From an uncultured Bacteroides sp. (lineage in GTDB: Bacteria > Bacteroidota > Bacteroidia > Bacteroidales > Bacteroidaceae): DNA of 64,000 nucleotides. Shown here piece after piece: positions 7,915-58,569 of the stretch (its first letter is position 1; the number at the start of each line of letters is the position of its first letter). The stretch is taken from NCBI GenBank assembly GCA_902388495.1, contig CABMPP010000003.1, forward strand, positions 1-64,000, read 5' to 3'. Under the pieces are notes generated by a model that saw nothing but the letters and a program-made list of their open reading frames with translations, made no database searches and was not told the DNA's origin. Both the position numbers and the translations under genes were made by a program.

Positions 7915-7985
7915 TTATAGATTGTTAGTATATGAGTCTCAAAAATACGGAAAAATAACTGCCGGGCAAATAAATTACTTCATTT

Positions 7986-8016
7986 TTTGTTTCTTGATTA
8001 TTAATCCTTACTTTTG
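7986..8016 (+). promoter_or_regulatory. Bacteroides-type promoter for the cytidylate-kinase-like gene
   Basis: TTTG at 7986-7989, 19 nt spacer, TACTTTTG (TAnnTTTG) at 8009-8016. Both elements and spacing match the consensus for the primary sigma factor of Bacteroides. Transcription would begin near 8023, leaving a leader of about 24 nt before the ATG at 8047; this also argues for that start over the in-frame TTG at 8014, which lies inside the promoter. Confidence 0.75.
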
Positions 8017-10447: not shown

Positions 10448-10645
10448 AGTAACCTTATTTATACCTATTTCTCAAAATTTCGCGCAAAATTAGTTAATAA
10501 AGGGGAGGTAGCAAAGGGTTTGCTGCTTTTCTTTTTGCGGAGTCCTTTTTTTCCTGTCGACTGTTCCCTTTTTAACTATGTTATCAATACGTCAGTCCCA
10601 TGTGCGAATTTTGCTTAAAAAATCTTTTTGTTCTAAGTATTTCAG

Positions 10646-50889: not shown

Positions 50890-50979
50890 AAATGTTATCT
50901 TGCTAATATTGCAAGTATATTTTGAGATTCAGATGTGTCATATACGATTAAAAACTCTTTAAACTTAATCTATACATAT

Positions 50980-52155
50980 ATGAAATTAGCGACACTTACC
51001 CTTTTGGGGATAATATGTACTTGCTTAACAAGTTGTTCTGTAGGTAAGAGTGAAGACGGCGATTTGCCTGTGCTTGATTTGTCCAAAGAATATCCTAAAG
51101 AAAAATTGGATATACGCGAGATTGCGGATGTTGAGTATATCCCATTGGAAACTACTGATGAATCTGTTCTTGGAATGGGGTTGGTATCTATGTCTGATGA
51201 ATATATCATAATCAACTATTTTGGTAACATATTCTTCTTCGATAGGAAAACCGGAAAGTTTCTTTGGAAATTCAATCGAAAAGGAGGTTCGGGAGAAGAA
51301 TATTCTACAGGAATTATTCTTATTGTCGATTTCCTTTCTGAGGAATGCTATGTTTATGACTGTGTCCGTAATAAAATTCTGGTCTATACCTATCATGGAG
51401 ATTTTAAGCGCTCTTTTCCTATTAAGAAGGAAGGACTGCTACTAATCCCAACATACAATTATAATAAGGATTATTTGGTAGGATACAACAAATTTACGTC
51501 CCGTAGTGATTTCAAACTGTTAGATCCACATCCATATTATTTAATTAGTAAGCGGGACGGAAAAATAAGCCCTTTGCCTATAGACGTTGAGAACTCTATT
51601 AATACCAAGTTAGAGCGGAAATTTGTTAAGGGAGGTACATATTCTATTAGTCTTTCTGAAATGATTAATTTGCTGAAAGCTGGTGATGAAACATTTATTG
51701 GTGATTTTGCATTGGATACTCTTTATATCTCAAAGGAGCATAAATTAACTCCTGTTGCAGTTCAAAAGCCTGAAGTCTTTTCCTCCGATGTGCCATTAGT
51801 TGTTAGTGCGGATCTCTTTACAGATAGTTATATGGGGTTTTACGTTGTTAAAATGAGATATGTTCCGGAAGATCCTTATAAACCTCTGAATGAAGCCCCT
51901 TATTTGTATTGGAATCGTAAAACAGGGGAAATCCACCGTTATGAATTATATGACTCTAATATTCTGACAGAGAAAATACTTCGCCCTTTGATGTTTCATA
52001 CGCAGCTTGATAAGAATCAGGCAATATTTCGTTTTAAAGCTGAATTTCTGGTTGAGCAATATGAAGCAGGTAAGTTGCGTGGTGAGTTGAAAGAGATTGC
52101 TTCAAAATTGAATATAGAAGATAATCATGTTTTGGTTTTGTGTAAATTCAAATAG
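50980..52155 (+). CDS. Six-bladed beta-propeller lipoprotein
   Basis: 391 residues from the ATG at 50980, which gives a lipoprotein signal (LATLTLLGIICTCLTSC, Cys19); an earlier in-frame ATG adds 15 non-signal residues. 'EIADVEYIPLETTDESVLG' (about 43-61) followed by 'YFGNIFFFDRKTGKFLWKFNRKG' strands is the signature of the Bacteroides 6-bladed propeller family (DUF4934-like). Such lipoproteins often accompany peptide or bacteriocin export genes. Consistent with that, the next in-frame codons after the stop encode an HlyD C-terminal stub. A+T rich relative to neighbours. Function unknown. Confidence 0.75.
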   Translation: MKLATLTLLGIICTCLTSCSVGKSEDGDLPVLDLSKEYPKEKLDIREIADVEYIPLETTDESVLGMGLVSMSDEYIIINYFGNIFFFDRKTGKFLWKFNRKGGSGEEYSTGIILIVDFLSEECYVYDCVRNKILVYTYHGDFKRSFPIKKEGLLLIPTYNYNKDYLVGYNKFTSRSDFKLLDPHPYYLISKRDGKISPLPIDVENSINTKLERKFVKGGTYSISLSEMINLLKAGDETFIGDFALDTLYISKEHKLTPVAVQKPEVFSSDVPLVVSADLFTDSYMGFYVVKMRYVPEDPYKPLNEAPYLYWNRKTGEIHRYELYDSNILTEKILRPLMFHTQLDKNQAIFRFKAEFLVEQYEAGKLRGELKEIASKLNIEDNHVLVLCKFK

Positions 52156-52287: not shown

Positions 52288-52380
52288 GTCAAGTGCAGAC
52301 CGTTTAAGTGATAAAATCGGATTTTAAAGCGCCGTTTTCTTACGATTATTCGCTTTAATCTCATTTTTTTCTTCAATTTG

Positions 52381-52411
52381 TTTGGAGTTTATAAAAAAGC
52401 CCTTACCTTTG
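52381..52411 (+). promoter_or_regulatory. Promoter of the ilv operon
   Basis: TTTG at 52381-52384, exactly 19 nt, TACCTTTG (TAnnTTTG) at 52404-52411. Both boxes and spacing are consensus for Bacteroides. Transcription would start near 52418, about 36 nt before the leader peptide ATG. Confidence 0.85.
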
Positions 52412-52453
52412 CAGCACAATTAAAACAAAAAAGAGTAATAAAGATATTGAGTT

Positions 52454-52528
52454 ATGAATCTACATACATCTATTAACCTGGCAGTCCTGCATATTATTCG
52501 CGTCGTGGTGGTGGCATCAAGAGCGTGA
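52454..52528 (+). CDS. ilv leader peptide
   Basis: 24 codons, ATG 52454 to TGA 52526. Composition is extreme: 11 of 24 residues are Ile, Leu or Val, including Ile-Ile at codons 14-15 and four consecutive Val codons (17-20; 'HIIRVVVVASRA' is the C-terminus). The frame sits between a consensus promoter and an intrinsic terminator, directly upstream of ilvD. This is the classic layout of an amino-acid attenuator leader. Ribosome stalling at these codons when charged tRNA is scarce would control the following structure. Confidence 0.85.
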   Translation: MNLHTSINLAVLHIIRVVVVASRA

Positions 52529-52603
52529 GAAAGGTTATGTATGTATTCGTACGTTAGAAGATAAATTATTAAGCCTTTCTCACAGTAGTGGGGGAGGCTT
52601 TTT
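52525..52603 (+). terminator. ilv attenuator: antiterminator and terminator hairpins
   Basis: Terminator stem 52571-52583 / 52588-52600 (13 bp with G-U pairs, loop AGTA) followed by a T-run. Its left arm also pairs perfectly with GTGAGAAAGG at 52525-52534, which overlaps the leader stop codon, giving a competing antiterminator. A third pairing, TACATACAT (52461-52469) with ATGTATGTA (52537-52545), can sequester the antiterminator segment. The three mutually exclusive pairings match the 1:2, 2:3, 3:4 logic of classic attenuation. Confidence 0.8.
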
Positions 52604-52624
52604 CATTAAAAAGAAGATTGTAAA

Positions 52625-54427
52625 ATGAAGCATCAGTTACGTAGTTCGTTCAGCACACAAGGTCGCCGTATGGCAGGAGCCCGTGCTCTATGGGCAGCCA
52701 ATGGCATGAAGAAAGAACAGATGGGCAAGCCTATCATCGCTATAGTAAACTCGTTCACGCAGTTTGTTCCCGGTCATGTGCACCTGCATGAGATAGGACA
52801 GTTTGTAAAGGCGGAGATTGAAAAGCAAGGCTGTTTTGCGGCAGAGTTCAATACGATTGCTATTGACGATGGTATCGCTATGGGACACGACGGCATGCTT
52901 TATTCACTGCCTTCCCGAGACATCATTGCCGATAGCGTGGAATATATGGTGAATGCCCACAAAGCAGATGCTATGGTTTGCATCAGTAATTGCGACAAGA
53001 TAACTCCGGGTATGCTGATGGCAGCGATGAGGCTGAATATCCCTACCGTGTTTGTTTCCGGTGGGCCGATGGAGGCCGGCGAGTGGAACGGACAGCATCT
53101 CGATCTGATTGATGCTATGATTAAGTCGGCCGACGAAAGTGTAAGCGATAAGGAGGTTGCCAAGATTGAGCAACATGCCTGTCCTACTTGCGGATGCTGC
53201 TCGGGCATGTTTACCGCCAATTCCATGAACTGCCTGAACGAAGCGATTGGTCTGGCCCTGCCCGGCAACGGTACGATTGTAGCTACCCACGAGAATCGCA
53301 AGAAACTCTTTAAGGATGCTGCCAAACTGATTGTAGAAAACGCAACTAAATATTACGAAGAAGGAGATGACAGCGTACTTCCGCGCAGCATTGCCACCCG
53401 TCAGGCTTTCCTGAACGCCATGACGCTGGACATTGCGATGGGTGGCTCTACCAATACGGTGCTTCACCTGCTGGCTGTGGCTCACGAAGCCGGAGCTGAT
53501 TTCAAGATGGACGATATCGATATGCTGTCTCGCAAGACTCCATGCTTGTGCAAAGTTGCTCCCAATACCCAGAAATATCACGTACAGGATGTGAACCGCG
53601 CCGGTGGTATCGTTGCTATCATGAGCGAACTGGCGAAAGGCGGTTTGGTAGACACCACGGTACGCCGTGTGGACGGAATGACGTTGGCCGAAGAAATAGA
53701 CCAATATGACATCACCAGCCCGAATGTATGTAAGAAGGCAATCAAGAAATACTCCAGTGCAGCCGGTGGAAAGTTCAATCTGGAACTCGGCTCGCAGGAT
53801 GCATATTATAAGGAATTGGATACCGACCGCGCAACGGGTTGCATCCGCGACTTGGAACATGCTTATAGTAAGGATGGTGGTCTGGCTGTTCTGAAAGGAA
53901 ATATTGCCCTGGATGGTTGCGTCGTCAAGACGGCAGGTGTGGACGAGAGTATCTGGAAATTTACCGGTCCGGCTAAGGTCTTTGATTCACAAGAAGCGGC
54001 TTGCGACGGTATATTGGGAGGAAAGGTCGTCAGTGGCGATGTCGTCGTCATCACTCACGAAGGTCCGAAAGGCGGCCCGGGTATGCAGGAGATGCTTTAT
54101 CCGACTTCCTATATCAAATCCCGCCATTTAGGAAAAGAATGTGCACTGATTACCGACGGACGTTTCAGCGGCGGTACTTCCGGGCTGAGCATCGGACATG
54201 TATCTCCCGAAGCTGCTGCCGGTGGCAATATCGGCAAGATTAAGGATGGGGATATCATTGAAATCAACATTCCGGAGCGCACCATCAATGTGAAGCTGAC
54301 AGACGAAGAACTGGCAGCACGCCCGATGACTCCCGTCACCCGCGACCGCGAAGTGTCCAAGGCACTGAAGGCATACGCCAGCATGGTAAGTTCTGCCGAT
54401 AAGGGAGCTGTGAGGTTGATTGATTAA
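52625..54427 (+). CDS. ilvD: Dihydroxy-acid dehydratase
   Basis: 600 residues. Iron-sulfur ligands in '[12 protein letters not shown]' (about 119-130) and '[17 protein letters not shown]' (about 190-206), plus '[19 protein letters not shown]' near 513. It dehydrates 2,3-dihydroxy-isovalerate and 2,3-dihydroxy-3-methylvalerate to the keto acids, the third common step to valine and isoleucine. First structural gene after the attenuator; the ilvB ATG follows 22 nt after the stop. Cytoplasmic. Confidence 0.97.
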
Positions 54428-54449
54428 TTGAAAATTGAGAAATAATAAT

Positions 54450-56144
54450 ATGGAAAACTTAATAACAGGCGCAGAAGCATTGATGCGCTCTCTGGAACAT
54501 CAGGGAGTAAAGACCATTTTCGGTTATCCGGGTGGCAGCATCATGCCGGTATTCGACGCCTTATATGACCACCGAAAGAATCTGAATCATATCCTGGTTC
54601 GCCATGAACAGGGAGCAACCCATGCTGCACAAGGCTTTGCACGTGTATCGGGCGAGGTCGGCGTATGCCTGGTGACCAGTGGCCCGGGTGCTACCAATAC
54701 CATAACCGGCATTGCCGATGCCATGATAGACAGTACGCCCGTCGTTGTCATTGCAGGTCAGGTGGGAACTGCTTTTCTGGGTACGGATGCTTTTCAGGAA
54801 GTGGACTTGGTAGGCATCACGCAACCTATTACAAAGTGGAGCTATCAGATTCGCCGTGCGGAAGATGTGGCTTGGGCAGTGGCACGTGCTTTCTATATTG
54901 CACAGAGCGGACGTCCCGGTCCTGTAGTGCTGGACTTTGCGAAGAATGCCCAGACGGAAAAGACGGAATATGTTCCTACCAAAGTAGATTATATCCGCAG
55001 CTATCTGCCCGTTCCCGAGATGGAACCGGAAGCTATACAGCAGGCTGCCGATTTGATAAATGGTGCCGAGCGCCCCTTGGTGCTGGTGGGACAAGGTGTA
55101 GAGTTGGGCAATGCACAGCAGGAGCTTCGTACTTTCATAGAGAAAGCGGAAATGCCTGCGGGTTGTACGCTGCTGGGACTCTCGGCTTTGCCTACGGAGC
55201 ATCCTCTGAATAAAGGTATGCTGGGGATGCATGGCAATCTGGGCCCGAATATCAATACCAACAAGTGCGATGTCCTTATTGCCGTAGGTATGCGCTTTGA
55301 TGACCGCGTGACCGGTAAACTGGCAACTTATGCCACGCAGGCAAAGATTATTCATTTCGATATCGACCCTGCAGAAATAGATAAGAATGTAAAGACAGAT
55401 GTTGCCGTATTGGGTAATTGTAAAGAAACCCTGGCTGCTGTTACCAAACTCCTGAAACCGGCCAAGCATAAAGAGTGGCTGGAAAGCTTCCTTCCTTACG
55501 AAAAAGTGGAAGAGGAGAAGGTGATCCGTCCGGAACTATATCCGTCGGGAGATGCACTGAGCATGGGTGAGGTGATACGTGCTGTCAGCGAAGCTACTAA
55601 CAATGAGGCAATACTGGTGACGGACGTAGGCCAGAACCAGATGATGTCCGCCCGCTACTTTAAATATACTAAAGAACGCAGCATCGTAACTTCCGGCGGC
55701 CTCGGTACAATGGGCTTCGGTCTGCCTGCTGCCATTGGCGCTACCTTCGGACGTCCTGACCGCACGGTCTGCGTCTTTATGGGTGACGGCGGCATACAGA
55801 TGAACTTGCAGGAGCTGGGAACCATTATGGAACAAAAAGCTCCGGTGAAGATGATTCTGCTGAACAATAACTTCCTGGGTAATGTTCGTCAATGGCAGGC
55901 GATGTTCTTCAACGGACGATATTCGTTCACGCCGATGCTGAATCCGGATTATATGAAGATAGCTTCGGCCTATGATATTCCGGCGCAGAAGGTATTTACC
56001 CGCGAAGAACTGAAGAAGGCAATCGACGAAATGATTGCGACGGATGGTCCGTTCTTGTTGGAAGCATGTGTGATAGAAGAAGGTAATGTATTGCCGATGA
56101 CACCTCCGGGTGGTTCGGTCAATCAGATGTTGCTGGAGTGCTGA
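54450..56144 (+). CDS. ilvB: Acetolactate synthase large subunit
   Basis: 564 residues from the ATG at 54450 (an in-frame TTG at 54435 is unlikely). Catalytic Glu in 'RHEQGATHAAQGFARVSG' (about 51-68), 'VTSGPGATNTITGIADAMID' (about 75-94), and the thiamine-diphosphate motif beginning 'GDGGIQMNLQELGTI' (about 446-460) and ending LLNNNFLG. With IlvN it condenses pyruvate with pyruvate or 2-ketobutyrate. ilvN starts 10-19 nt downstream. Confidence 0.97.
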   Translation: MENLITGAEALMRSLEHQGVKTIFGYPGGSIMPVFDALYDHRKNLNHILVRHEQGATHAAQGFARVSGEVGVCLVTSGPGATNTITGIADAMIDSTPVVVIAGQVGTAFLGTDAFQEVDLVGITQPITKWSYQIRRAEDVAWAVARAFYIAQSGRPGPVVLDFAKNAQTEKTEYVPTKVDYIRSYLPVPEMEPEAIQQAADLINGAERPLVLVGQGVELGNAQQELRTFIEKAEMPAGCTLLGLSALPTEHPLNKGMLGMHGNLGPNINTNKCDVLIAVGMRFDDRVTGKLATYATQAKIIHFDIDPAEIDKNVKTDVAVLGNCKETLAAVTKLLKPAKHKEWLESFLPYEKVEEEKVIRPELYPSGDALSMGEVIRAVSEATNNEAILVTDVGQNQMMSARYFKYTKERSIVTSGGLGTMGFGLPAAIGATFGRPDRTVCVFMGDGGIQMNLQELGTIMEQKAPVKMILLNNNFLGNVRQWQAMFFNGRYSFTPMLNPDYMKIASAYDIPAQKVFTREELKKAIDEMIATDGPFLLEACVIEEGNVLPMTPPGGSVNQMLLEC

Positions 56145-56154
56145 TTTTAAATAA

Positions 56155-56724
56155 ATGGATTATATGGACAAGACATTATATACAATTATCGTTCATTCGG
56201 AGAACTTCGCCGGTCTGCTGAATCAGGTGACGGCTGTATTCACCCGTCGGCAAATCAATATCGAGAGCTTGAATGTATCGGCTTCTTCTATCAAAGGAGT
56301 ACATAAATATACCATTACCGCCTGGACGGATAAAGATACCATCGAGAAGGTGGTCAAGCAGATCACCAAGAAGATAGATGTGCTGCAAGCGCACTACTTC
56401 ACCGATGATGAAATCTATCAGCACGAGATAGCTCTTTATAAGATAACGACTCCTATCCTGGAGGAGAAACCGGAAATCTCCAAGATTATCCGTAAATACA
56501 ATGCACGCATTGTAGAGGTGAACGGAGTGTTCTCTATTGTAGAGAAGAATGGCATGAGTGAGGAAATCACGAATCTATATGAAGAGTTGCGCGCACTGGA
56601 CTGTGTACTTCAGTTTGTCCGTTCGGGTCGCGTGGCTATTACTACCAGCTGCTTCGAGCGTGTCAACGAATACTTGGCCGATCGCGAAGCAAAATATCGT
56701 CAAAGCAAACAAACGGAAGAATAA
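56155..56724 (+). CDS. ilvN: Acetolactate synthase small regulatory subunit
   Basis: 189 residues from 56155; an ATG at 56164 is equally possible and gives a start closer to other family members. N-terminal ACT domain ('LYTIIVHSENFAGLLNQVTA', about 7-26, then 'RRQINIESLNVSASSIKGVH'), which binds valine for feedback control, and a C-terminal domain (about 90-175) that activates IlvB. Stop and the next start overlap as TAATG, so translation is coupled to the thioesterase gene. Confidence 0.95.
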   Translation: MDYMDKTLYTIIVHSENFAGLLNQVTAVFTRRQINIESLNVSASSIKGVHKYTITAWTDKDTIEKVVKQITKKIDVLQAHYFTDDEIYQHEIALYKITTPILEEKPEISKIIRKYNARIVEVNGVFSIVEKNGMSEEITNLYEELRALDCVLQFVRSGRVAITTSCFERVNEYLADREAKYRQSKQTEE

Positions 56725-57473
56725 TGAGTGAAAACAGTAAGATAGGTACTTATAAGTTCGTGGCCGAACCGTTCCACGTGGACTTTACCGGACGCCTGAC
56801 AATGGGTGTCCTTGGCAACCATTTGCTGAATTGTGCAGGTTTCCATGCCGGCGACCGTGGTTTCGGCATTGCTACTTTGAATGAGGACAATTATACGTGG
56901 GTATTATCCCGCCTGGCTGTAGAACTGGATGAGATGCCCTATCAGTACGAAGACTTTTCCATTCAGACTTGGGTAGAGAATGTCTATCGTCTTTTCACCG
57001 ACCGTAACTTTGCTCTTATCAATAAGGACGGGAAACGGATTGGCTATGCACGCTCCGTCTGGGCAATGATCAGCATGAACACCCGCAAACCGGCGGACTT
57101 GTTGGCTTTGCATAGCGGCAGCATCGTAGACTATGTGTGCGATGAGCCTTGCCCCATCGAGAAGCCCTCGCGCATCAAGGTTGCTTCGACAACACCGGCA
57201 GCCTCCGTGAAAGCGAAGTATAGCGATATCGACATTAACGGGCATGTGAACAGCATCCGTTACATAGAGCATATCCTTGATTTGTTCCCGATCGAGATGT
57301 ATAAGGAGAAGCGTATCCGTCGCTTTGAGATGGCATACGTAGCCGAAAGTTATTATGGCGACGAACTTACCCTCTTCATGGACGATGCCGGCGACGGTGT
57401 TTATGAAGTGGAAGTGAAGAAGAATGGCAACGAGGTTGTCTGCCGCTCTAAAGTGATATTTACAGAGAAATAA
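56724..57473 (+). CDS. Acyl-ACP thioesterase
   Basis: 249 residues, cytoplasmic. Double hot-dog fold of the FatA/FatB-like family: first half with 'FHVDFTGRLTMGVLGNHLLNCAG' region (about 17-39) and 'YTWVLSRLAVELDEMP' (about 55-70), second half with the catalytic 'YSDIDINGHVNSIRYIEHIL' (about 168-187; Asp, Asn and His in line). It releases free fatty acids from acyl-carrier protein. It is embedded between ilvN (start overlaps the ilvN stop by one base) and ilvC (52 nt), so it is co-expressed with branched-chain amino acid synthesis. Chain specificity cannot be read. Confidence 0.9.
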   Translation: MSENSKIGTYKFVAEPFHVDFTGRLTMGVLGNHLLNCAGFHAGDRGFGIATLNEDNYTWVLSRLAVELDEMPYQYEDFSIQTWVENVYRLFTDRNFALINKDGKRIGYARSVWAMISMNTRKPADLLALHSGSIVDYVCDEPCPIEKPSRIKVASTTPAASVKAKYSDIDINGHVNSIRYIEHILDLFPIEMYKEKRIRRFEMAYVAESYYGDELTLFMDDAGDGVYEVEVKKNGNEVVCRSKVIFTEK

Positions 57474-57525: not shown

Positions 57526-58569
57526 ATGGCACAATTGAATTTTGGCGGTGTTATTGAGAATGTAATGACCCGCGAAGAATTTCCTTTGGAAAAAGCACGT
57601 GAGATTTTGAAAGATGAGACGATTGCAGTAATCGGTTATGGTGTGCAAGGTCCCGGACAGGCTTGTAACCTGCGCGATAACGGCTTCAATGTAATTGTAG
57701 GGCAACGCCCGGGAGCTACTTTCGAGAAGGCAGTAGCAGACGGATGGGTACCGGGTGAAACTTTGTTCGGTATCGAGGAAGCTTGCCAGAAAGGTTCCAT
57801 CATCATGTGTCTGCTGTCCGATGCAGCCGTAATGTCTGTATGGCCTACTATCAAACCTTATCTGACTCCGGGCAAGGCTCTTTACTTCTCTCATGGTTTT
57901 GCTATTACCTGGAACGACCGTACCGGTGTGGTTCCTCCCAAAGATATCGATGTTATCATGGTTGCTCCTAAAGGTTCGGGTACTTCACTTCGTACCATGT
58001 TCCTCGAAGGCCGTGGCTTGAACTCTTCATACGCTATCTATCAGGATGCTACGGGCAAAGCTTTCGACAAGACTATCGCACTGGGTATCGGTATCGGTTC
58101 GGGTTATCTGTTTGAAACGACTTTCCAACGCGAAGCTACTTCCGACCTTACCGGCGAACGTGGTTCGTTGATGGGGGCTATCCAGGGATTGCTGTTGGCT
58201 CAATACGAGGTATTGCGCGAAAACGGCCATACTCCGTCGGAAGCATTCAACGAAACAGTGGAAGAGCTGACTCAGTCTTTGATGCCGTTGTTTGCTAAGA
58301 ATGGTATGGACTGGATGTATGCCAACTGCTCTACTACCGCTCAGCGTGGTGCTTTGGACTGGATGACTCCGTTCCACGATGCTATCAAGCCGGTAGTTCA
58401 GAAACTGTATGACAGCGTAAAATCCGGTAACGAGGCTCAGATTTCTATCGACAGCAACTCTAAGACCGATTATCGCGAGAAGCTGAATGCAGAACTGAAA
58501 GCATTGCGCGAAAGCGAAATGTGGCAGACGGCGGTTACGGTTCGTAAACTTCGTCCGGAAAATAACTAA
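57526..58569 (+). CDS. ilvC: Ketol-acid reductoisomerase
   Basis: 347 residues. N-terminal Rossmann motif 'VIGYGVQGPGQACNLRDNG' (about 36-54) and C-terminal knotted domain with 'DLTGERGSLMGAIQGLLLAQ' (about 207-226), whose acidic residues bind Mg2+. Converts acetolactate or acetohydroxybutyrate to the dihydroxy acids using NAD(P)H. Short class I-like length. Last gene of the operon; a strong terminator follows. Confidence 0.96.
   Translation: MAQLNFGGVIENVMTREEFPLEKAREILKDETIAVIGYGVQGPGQACNLRDNGFNVIVGQRPGATFEKAVADGWVPGETLFGIEEACQKGSIIMCLLSDAAVMSVWPTIKPYLTPGKALYFSHGFAITWNDRTGVVPPKDIDVIMVAPKGSGTSLRTMFLEGRGLNSSYAIYQDATGKAFDKTIALGIGIGSGYLFETTFQREATSDLTGERGSLMGAIQGLLLAQYEVLRENGHTPSEAFNETVEELTQSLMPLFAKNGMDWMYANCSTTAQRGALDWMTPFHDAIKPVVQKLYDSVKSGNEAQISIDSNSKTDYREKLNAELKALRESEMWQTAVTVRKLRPENN

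Follow-up and report, generated by a model that had tools for sequence, protein, structure and literature searches.

The 64,000-nucleotide window analysed here, from an uncultured Bacteroides sp., carries a set of branched-chain amino acid genes on its plus strand. The first gene under the proposed control is ilvD (52625-54427; dihydroxy-acid dehydratase, Pfam PF00920 and PF24877). It is followed by ilvB (54450-56144; acetolactate synthase large subunit, Pfam TPP enzyme domains and NCBIfam TIGR00118 above its cut-off), for which an alternative in-frame TTG start at 54435 is possible, by ilvN (56155-56724; acetolactate synthase small subunit, Pfam PF10369 and ACT), and by ilvC (57526-58569; ketol-acid reductoisomerase, Pfam PF07991 and PF01450). 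An acyl-ACP thioesterase gene (56724-57473; Pfam PF01643 and PF20791) sits amid the ilv genes, between ilvN and ilvC. Intergenic distances from ilvD to ilvC run from a 1-nt overlap up to 52 nt, and these short gaps make it likely that ilvD-ilvB-ilvN-thioesterase-ilvC is one operon. The nearest gene upstream of the control region, on the same strand (50935-52155), stops 415 nt before the terminator described below.

An exact match to the pattern TTTG-N19-TAnnTTTG lies well upstream of ilvD on the plus strand, with its -33 element, TTTG, at 52381-52384 and its -7 element, TACCTTTG, 19 nt further on at 52404-52411. Its position would place the transcription start near 52418. The pattern scan found 4 exact matches in the window against 0.26 expected; the others lie at 7940-7970 (minus strand) and 7986-8016 (plus strand), which are back to back on opposite strands, and at 10485-10515 (minus strand). 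TTTG / TAnnTTTG is the Bacteroides promoter consensus as quoted in PMC7366714. A sigma-70 scan found no promoter at the site, as is expected for the phylum Bacteroidetes. The promoter recurs among relatives: a -7 box (TAnnTTTG) stands no more than 90 nt 5’ of the leader frame in 86 of 109 ilvD relatives, against 9.5% in shuffles, and in 42 of 48 leuA cases, against about 10-12%. It is accompanied by TTTG at -33 in 61 and 34 of these 109 and 48 cases, respectively. Since the promoters lie upstream of the leader, transcripts from them must traverse the terminator.

Translation of the open reading frames shows a leader peptide frame, MNLHTSINLAVLHIIRVVVVASRA, running on the plus strand from an ATG at 52454 to a TGA at 52526-52528 (52454-52528). 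Eleven of its 24 codons specify Ile, Leu or Val, and four consecutive Val codons (GTC GTG GTG GTG, 52502-52513) occupy the stretch 23 to 12 nt 5’ of a putative antiterminator, a placement that agrees with the position profile of relatives. The core of the antiterminator (52525-52534, GTGAGAAAGG) complements 52574-52583 (CCTTTCTCAC) without a mismatch, and the pairing can be extended to 12 pairs, joining the full strand GTGAGAAAGGTT (52525-52536, plus strand) with 52572-52583. The latter segment also forms most of the 5’ arm (52571-52583) of an intrinsic terminator, found by the terminator scan, whose 3’ arm and T run occupy 52588-52603. The hairpin (52571-52600) has 13 pairs, 6 of them G-C, and is followed by TTT; the T run ends 21 nt before the ilvD start. 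Terminator-like sites within the 1 kb scanned numbered 3 against 0.8 expected.

A third helix, the protector, was drawn from predicted folds and swap tests. Its 5’ side (52453-52479) comprises three blocks, 52453-52458, 52461-52468 and 52474-52479, and its 3’ side (52532-52551) is continuous in the minimum-energy fold and takes in the 3’ end of the antiterminator (AGGTT). The first block contains the leader ATG and is predicted to pair with 52546-52551. The initial annotation had proposed most of this layout, and our analysis bears out its consensus promoter, here of the Bacteroides TTTG/TAnnTTTG type, its 24-codon leader with 11 Ile/Leu/Val codons and four consecutive Val, its antiterminator at 52525-52534, which overlaps the stop codon and is perfectly complementary to the left arm of the terminator, and its intrinsic terminator at 52571-52603, which resolves into the hairpin and the T run. 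The third segment pair that it named, 52461-52469 with 52537-52545, is exact, but it is only part of a longer helix that overlaps the antiterminator. When the window was scanned at genes of 120 codons or more, no further arrangement of leader, antiterminator and terminator turned up.

The computed RNA states partly fit the classical attenuation model. The whole leader (52418-52610) folds at -51.6 kcal/mol (z -4.1; none of 200 shuffles was equally stable), and this fold is the terminated state. Taken up to 52568 only, so that the terminator is left out, the leader folds unremarkably (z -1.4; 21 of 200 shuffles equally stable). The terminator alone is computed at -18.9 and the antiterminator alone at -15.8 kcal/mol. 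When the antiterminator is exposed and the 3’ arm of the terminator has yet to be made, the antiterminator is predicted to form (-21.8 kcal/mol), its loop holding a small hairpin; when a ribosome sits at the stop codon, the antiterminator is blocked and the terminator forms. For the full-length leader the computed energies favour the terminator even if a ribosome has stalled and the antiterminator is exposed, so antitermination would have to be kinetic, set by the order of synthesis. In a ribosome-free RNA ending at 52590 the computed preference is for the antiterminator, so that default termination, too, would depend on kinetics.

We compared 245 ilvD upstream regions, of which 236 were unique once repeats were removed. 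They comprise the window, 80 loci from named species genomes, 5 repeats of the latter, a sample from the family of one relative (29 loci and 77 regions, from 106 of 108 genomes with a match) and a sample from the order of another relative (30 loci and 23 regions, from 53 of 62 matching genomes). By fixed criteria, a terminator, an antiterminator and an Ile/Leu/Val-rich leader were in place in 112 of the 236, whereas only 4 of 2360 dinucleotide shuffles carried the complete arrangement. Besides the window, the passing regions were 38 of 80 in the named-species sample, 37 of 104 in the family sample and 36 of 51 in the order sample. Among the named species, 9 of 10 Bacteroides or Phocaeicola loci passed. 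The tenth (L005) carries leader, antiterminator and terminator and fails because another hairpin is preferred, so the criteria miss some real cases. Two of 10 Prevotella/Prevotellaceae loci passed and the element is missing in 8, and none of 14 named-species loci outside Bacteroidota passed, three of which hold less than 200 nt upstream.

An Ile/Leu/Val-rich ATG frame taken by itself is weak evidence, as 110 of 2360 dinucleotide shuffles of ilvD upstream regions carry one; it is the conservation that makes the case. When the leader frame was the sole basis of selection, 122 of the 236 regions were chosen, and 103 of these also had a correctly placed terminator and antiterminator, leaving 19 that lacked the two by the criteria used. 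Given the shuffle frequency, chance may account for about a dozen of these 122.

The helices changed together. For covariation, the 112 passing sequences were reduced to 97 representatives below 80% identity, and one of these (L212) was dropped because its antiterminator call looked wrong; the 96 that remain were picked partly for pairing, and the statistics ignore relatedness. In the terminator 89.6% of cells are paired and all 13 pairs show two-sided changes; in the antiterminator 88.3% are paired, with two-sided changes in 8 of 10 pairs. Sliding a helix by 1-3 columns lowers the paired fraction to 39-66% (terminator) or 45-60% (antiterminator). None of 500 shuffles matched the values of either helix, apart from one antiterminator measure: 31 of 500 also gave 8 pairs with two-sided changes. 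One strand thus changes in concert with both of its partners, which is what a switch calls for. RNAalifold, run on all 112 sequences, recovered the terminator only.

The register of the protector slides between species and therefore allows no column-wise count of pairs. Protector pairing had played no part in selecting the sequences. In the first of two swap tests, with 103 sequences, the leader 5’ region was computed to pair with the region 3’ of the antiterminator at -9.74 kcal/mol within genomes, -7.85 between genomes and -8.48 when shuffled (z -8.2). With the 3’ part of the antiterminator included (112 sequences), the values were -15.30 for a region’s own partner, -11.06 for swapped and -10.85 for shuffled partners (z -15.8). 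The antiterminator was paired upstream at 0.76 compared with 0.50 for shuffled flanks, and the real value was higher in 105 of 112. In some distant relatives (L047, L134, L138, L141) the protector directly covers the antiterminator. A weaker test counted ungapped protector helices: 73 of 112 real sequences have one, whereas 20 shuffled sets averaged 41.9 and never exceeded 48. In 7 of the 73, this strong ungapped helix and the called ATG overlap.

Two further structures were considered and rejected. In the window and in several Bacteroides-like relatives, the computed folds place a hairpin on the Val codons, and this hairpin overlaps the 5’ end of the antiterminator; the swap test with 112 sequences did not support it (own -8.32, swapped -8.88, shuffled -9.11 kcal/mol; z +2.4). 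A pseudoknot between protector and antiterminator came into question as the exact 9-pair block adjoins the end of the antiterminator. We dropped it in favour of an ordinary protector because in the window the helix carries on into the antiterminator, and in distant relatives the two overlap. A comparison across Bacteroidales was the check that the initial annotation had put forward. In many Bacteroidales the frame of the leader, the Ile/Leu/Val codons in it and all three helices prove to be conserved, with compensatory change; the absence of such conservation, which the annotation had named as counter-evidence, was not seen. The comparison supports its reading of the region as a probable Ile/Leu/Val leader-peptide attenuator.

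The position of the codons is conserved too. A profile of the 103 leaders with an ATG start, out of the 112 relatives, shows the Ile/Leu/Val fraction peaking 21 nt (0.95) and 18 nt (0.93) ahead of the antiterminator and dropping to 0.13, 0.08 and 0.05 at -9, -6 and -3. From -39 to -12 the fraction is 0.78 in frame; reading the other two frames gives 0.19 and 0.05. Val is the commonest of the critical codons, and Ile and Leu are found more often further upstream. The footprint of a ribosome reaches about 12-14 nt ahead of its A site, so a ribosome with the codon at -21 or -18 in the A site would end just short of the antiterminator. The stop codon falls at -5 to +7 of the antiterminator start in 84 of 112 relatives, at +22 to +31 (22-31 nt past that start) in 21 and in other places in 7; in either main position, a ribosome that has completed the leader would lie on the antiterminator. 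Beyond the Ile/Leu/Val run, the peptides are highly variable in sequence, length and stop position.

Synonymous codon choice in the leaders is also distinctive. The GTC share of Val codons is 0.48 in ilvD leaders, compared with 0.16 in ilvD genes and 0.12 in triplets 5’ of the leaders, and the ATT share of Ile codons is 0.74, compared with 0.41 and 0.46. For Leu, the CTA share is 0.22 in ilvD leaders and 0.33 in leuA leaders, against 0.03 in ilvD genes and 0.08 in triplets 5’ of leaders.

When 121 genomes of the family were searched with a covariance model built on the ilvD element, at least 90 gave a match at E up to 0.01. Forty further matches away from ilvD, taken by hand from the matches listed (L275-L314), comprise 29 before leuA, one before leuC, one between ilvD and ilvB, one before trpB and 8 without the element. 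The leuA leader is exemplified by MIQNFTYILLCGIIILLAKFSGSECCA. Thirty more leuA loci were added by protein search alone (L315-L344), and 36 of the 58 unique leuA upstream regions pass the ilvD criteria, against none of 580 shuffles; the passes are shared between the model matches (19 of 29) and the protein search (17 of 29). The locus between ilvD and ilvB (L291, upstream of 3623, minus strand) holds an attenuator in one family genome, and a second family genome has a similar leader immediately in front of leuC (L308, upstream of 487).

An antiterminator and a leader with at least five Ile/Leu/Val codons are present in 49 of the 58 leuA upstream regions. In these 49, the Val fraction is 0.00-0.02 at every position from -51 to -9, and Leu reaches 0.59 at -18 and 0.55 at -15; Leu and Ile stand in place of the Val codons of the ilvD leaders. 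Among leaders with ATG starts, a Val codon occurs between -27 and -12 in 98 of 103 ilvD leaders versus 1 of 47 leuA leaders (Fisher p 1e-31, ancestry ignored), and a Leu codon in 57 of 103 versus 46 of 47. The codon predicted to be read at the decision point is thus one that tracks the regulated pathway. No other single observation speaks as strongly for translation and sensing of the leader.

Leaders of similar kind precede other amino acid genes in relatives. In a 41-genome family sample, hisG leaders (L345-L374; for example MKNIVAHHHHYHPDE) have at least 4 His codons in 18 of 30 loci, and 16 of the 18 have a terminator and an antiterminator, these being raw counts without a shuffle baseline; five such loci tested gave no Rfam match. 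Phe/Tyr-rich leaders before prephenate dehydratase genes of the same sample (L425-L454; for example MKSFTYAYYFFFYFYFSRKVEREFVCVK) have at least 4 Phe codons in 24 of 30 loci, many with a terminator and an antiterminator, again raw counts without a shuffle baseline, and the four loci tested gave no Rfam match. Twenty thrA regions, in several of which the gene start is uncertain, showed no Thr/Ile leader with a terminator and an antiterminator. In a phylum sample of distant ilvD genes, 37-54% identical to the query and probably from genomes outside the order, 4 of 20 upstream regions (L469-L472; a raw count) have Ile-rich leaders, such as MLSIILSLVIIQIIGIPYRTGKVL, with a terminator and an antiterminator.

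Other explanations of the window have to be weighed against these data. The terminator might merely end the transcript of the upstream gene (50935-52155), with ilvD served by its own promoter and the leader frame a coincidence. The orientation of that gene, which stops 415 nt before the terminator, would allow this, and a frame of this kind does arise in 110 of 2360 shuffles; however, only 21 nt separate the T run from ilvD, a -7 box falls in the gap between terminator and ilvD in 2 of 112 relatives compared with 86 of 109 before the leader, and antiterminator and leader are conserved together with the terminator. We consider this account extremely improbable. It is just as hard to credit that the structure is a metabolite riboswitch or a T-box and the short frame incidental. 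Although a structured leader and a terminator before a biosynthetic operon are a riboswitch layout too, no Rfam family is found at its cut-off, conservation tracks the codons of one frame and their distance to the antiterminator, and codon identity switches with the operon, which a metabolite-binding fold does not predict.

It is also possible in principle that the leader is a functional small protein, or that a stalled leader mainly controls translation of ilvD. The leader frames are conserved, and trans-acting leader peptides are the subject of PMC7298713. Yet the peptide beyond the Ile/Leu/Val run varies widely among relatives, and against translational control the intrinsic terminator and the covarying antiterminator point to transcription; we hold either version to be very improbable.

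We thus judge it highly probable that the ilvD-ilvB-ilvN-thioesterase-ilvC operon is under the control of a transcription attenuator of the classical, ribosome-mediated kind. This reading draws on the sequence itself, on pairing and its covariation, on conservation, and on the codons, both where they stand and how their identity changes from one operon to another. The window has a short frame rich in codons for the products of the pathway (11 of 24, and enriched in 103 relatives), with cognate codons just 5’ of the antiterminator (peaking at -21 and -18 nt) that fit the pathway, Val for ilvD and Leu for leuA. An intrinsic terminator stands between leader and first gene, an antiterminator excludes it through a common 5’ arm, both helices covarying, and a protector (1:2) helix competes with the antiterminator according to the swap tests.

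From this architecture we infer translation of the leader, stalling, termination, derepression, their kinetics and polarity over the whole operon. A ribosome would trail RNA polymerase along the leader. With charged Val-tRNA (and, further upstream, Ile- and Leu-tRNA) at hand, it would reach the stop at 52526-52528 and cover the antiterminator; the terminator at 52571-52600 could then form, and transcription would stop before ilvD. A stall on the Val codons (52502-52513), or on the Ile and Leu codons that precede them, would hold the leading edge 5’ of 52525. Lying on or between the strands of the protector, the stalled ribosome would leave the antiterminator to pair with the newly made 5’ arm of the terminator, and transcription would continue. 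If no ribosome were present, the protector would occupy much of the antiterminator, with termination as the default. Since the protector covers the leader ATG, the predicted fold suggests that later ribosomes would be excluded once the helix has formed.

It is tempting to speculate that one ancestral Bacteroidales branched-chain attenuator was copied between operons and retuned by its codons, Val for ilvD and Leu for leuA, as part of a wider set of trp, his and phe leader-peptide systems that does much of the amino acid control, and that the protector seals its own start so that only the first ribosome on each transcript votes. We offer this wider proposal tentatively, with rather more doubt than conviction. 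By these data, the speed of ribosomes on short leaders is a likely sensor of Val and Leu in many Bacteroidales. Attenuation requires a ribosome close behind the polymerase, here in a phylum whose mRNAs are described as lacking Shine-Dalgarno sequences (PMC7366714). The ilvD and leuA leaders within one genome constitute a built-in codon-swap comparison, and the alignment could seed Rfam families that are absent from release 15.

Rfam 15 gave no family at its cut-off in the window. A search of 52300-52700 at E up to 10 returned eight sub-threshold matches, none of them a T-box, a riboswitch or Bacteroid-trp (RF01692), and the window thus matches neither the RF01692 covariance model nor a T-box or amino acid riboswitch family known to Rfam. 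Three leuA loci, three distant ilvD loci and the locus between ilvD and ilvB (L291) likewise had no match at cut-off. RF01692 did match the locus before trpB (L295, 1028-1165, minus strand; 76.7 bits, cut-off 49), which has a WWW leader. As Rfam recognises the Bacteroidete trp leader there, its negative result for ilv and leu is informative. The trp element comes from the same phylum, and in its consensus UACAUA of the leader pairs with UAUGUA past the control region, a layout like that of the protector in the window; it differs in its Trp codons, trp genes and terminator sequence, and the window does not match its model.

Published work on other bacteria offers further parallels. In Flavobacterium psychrophilum, of the same phylum, strong clues have been reported for leader-peptide attenuation before amino acid operons, with structured 5’ elements of pheA and hisG that are conserved in the family and lack Rfam hits, but the text does not mention ilv (PMC9723704). 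The B. thetaiotaomicron transcriptome includes sORFs reminiscent of leader peptides, such as BT_4401, and the main text of that paper makes no mention of ilv (PMC7366714). The Corynebacterium ilvBNC uORF (ilvB-II motif), from another phylum and with another first gene, is likewise a short conserved frame that precedes an ilv operon and regulates the operon’s expression (PMC10272879). A premature-terminator survey of 2010 knew leader peptide systems in Proteobacteria and Actinobacteria only, ermC excepted, and added a Firmicutes find of its own (PMC2965389). The open-access literature consulted yielded no Bacteroides ilv or leu attenuator and no account of leader control over branched-chain amino acid synthesis in Bacteroides, although a prediction may exist elsewhere, for example in the bacteria-wide attenuation survey of Lopatovskaya et al. 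2010. Subject to such prior predictions in other papers, we regard the window element as an addition to the known leader-peptide attenuators.

The trp, his, ilv and leu attenuators of enterobacteria (ilvGMEDA, ilvBN and leu among them) consist of a leader with cognate codons, a protector, an antiterminator and a terminator, and Rfam includes the enterobacterial leaders. The window has the same order of elements, but in another phylum, behind a promoter of the Bacteroidetes type and with no Rfam match at cut-off. The likeness extends to codon choice: in the Salmonella leu attenuator, replacing CUA by CUG lowered sensitivity (PMC1183508), and the leader there has CUA Leu codons, which are also over-represented in the ilvD and leuA leaders described here.
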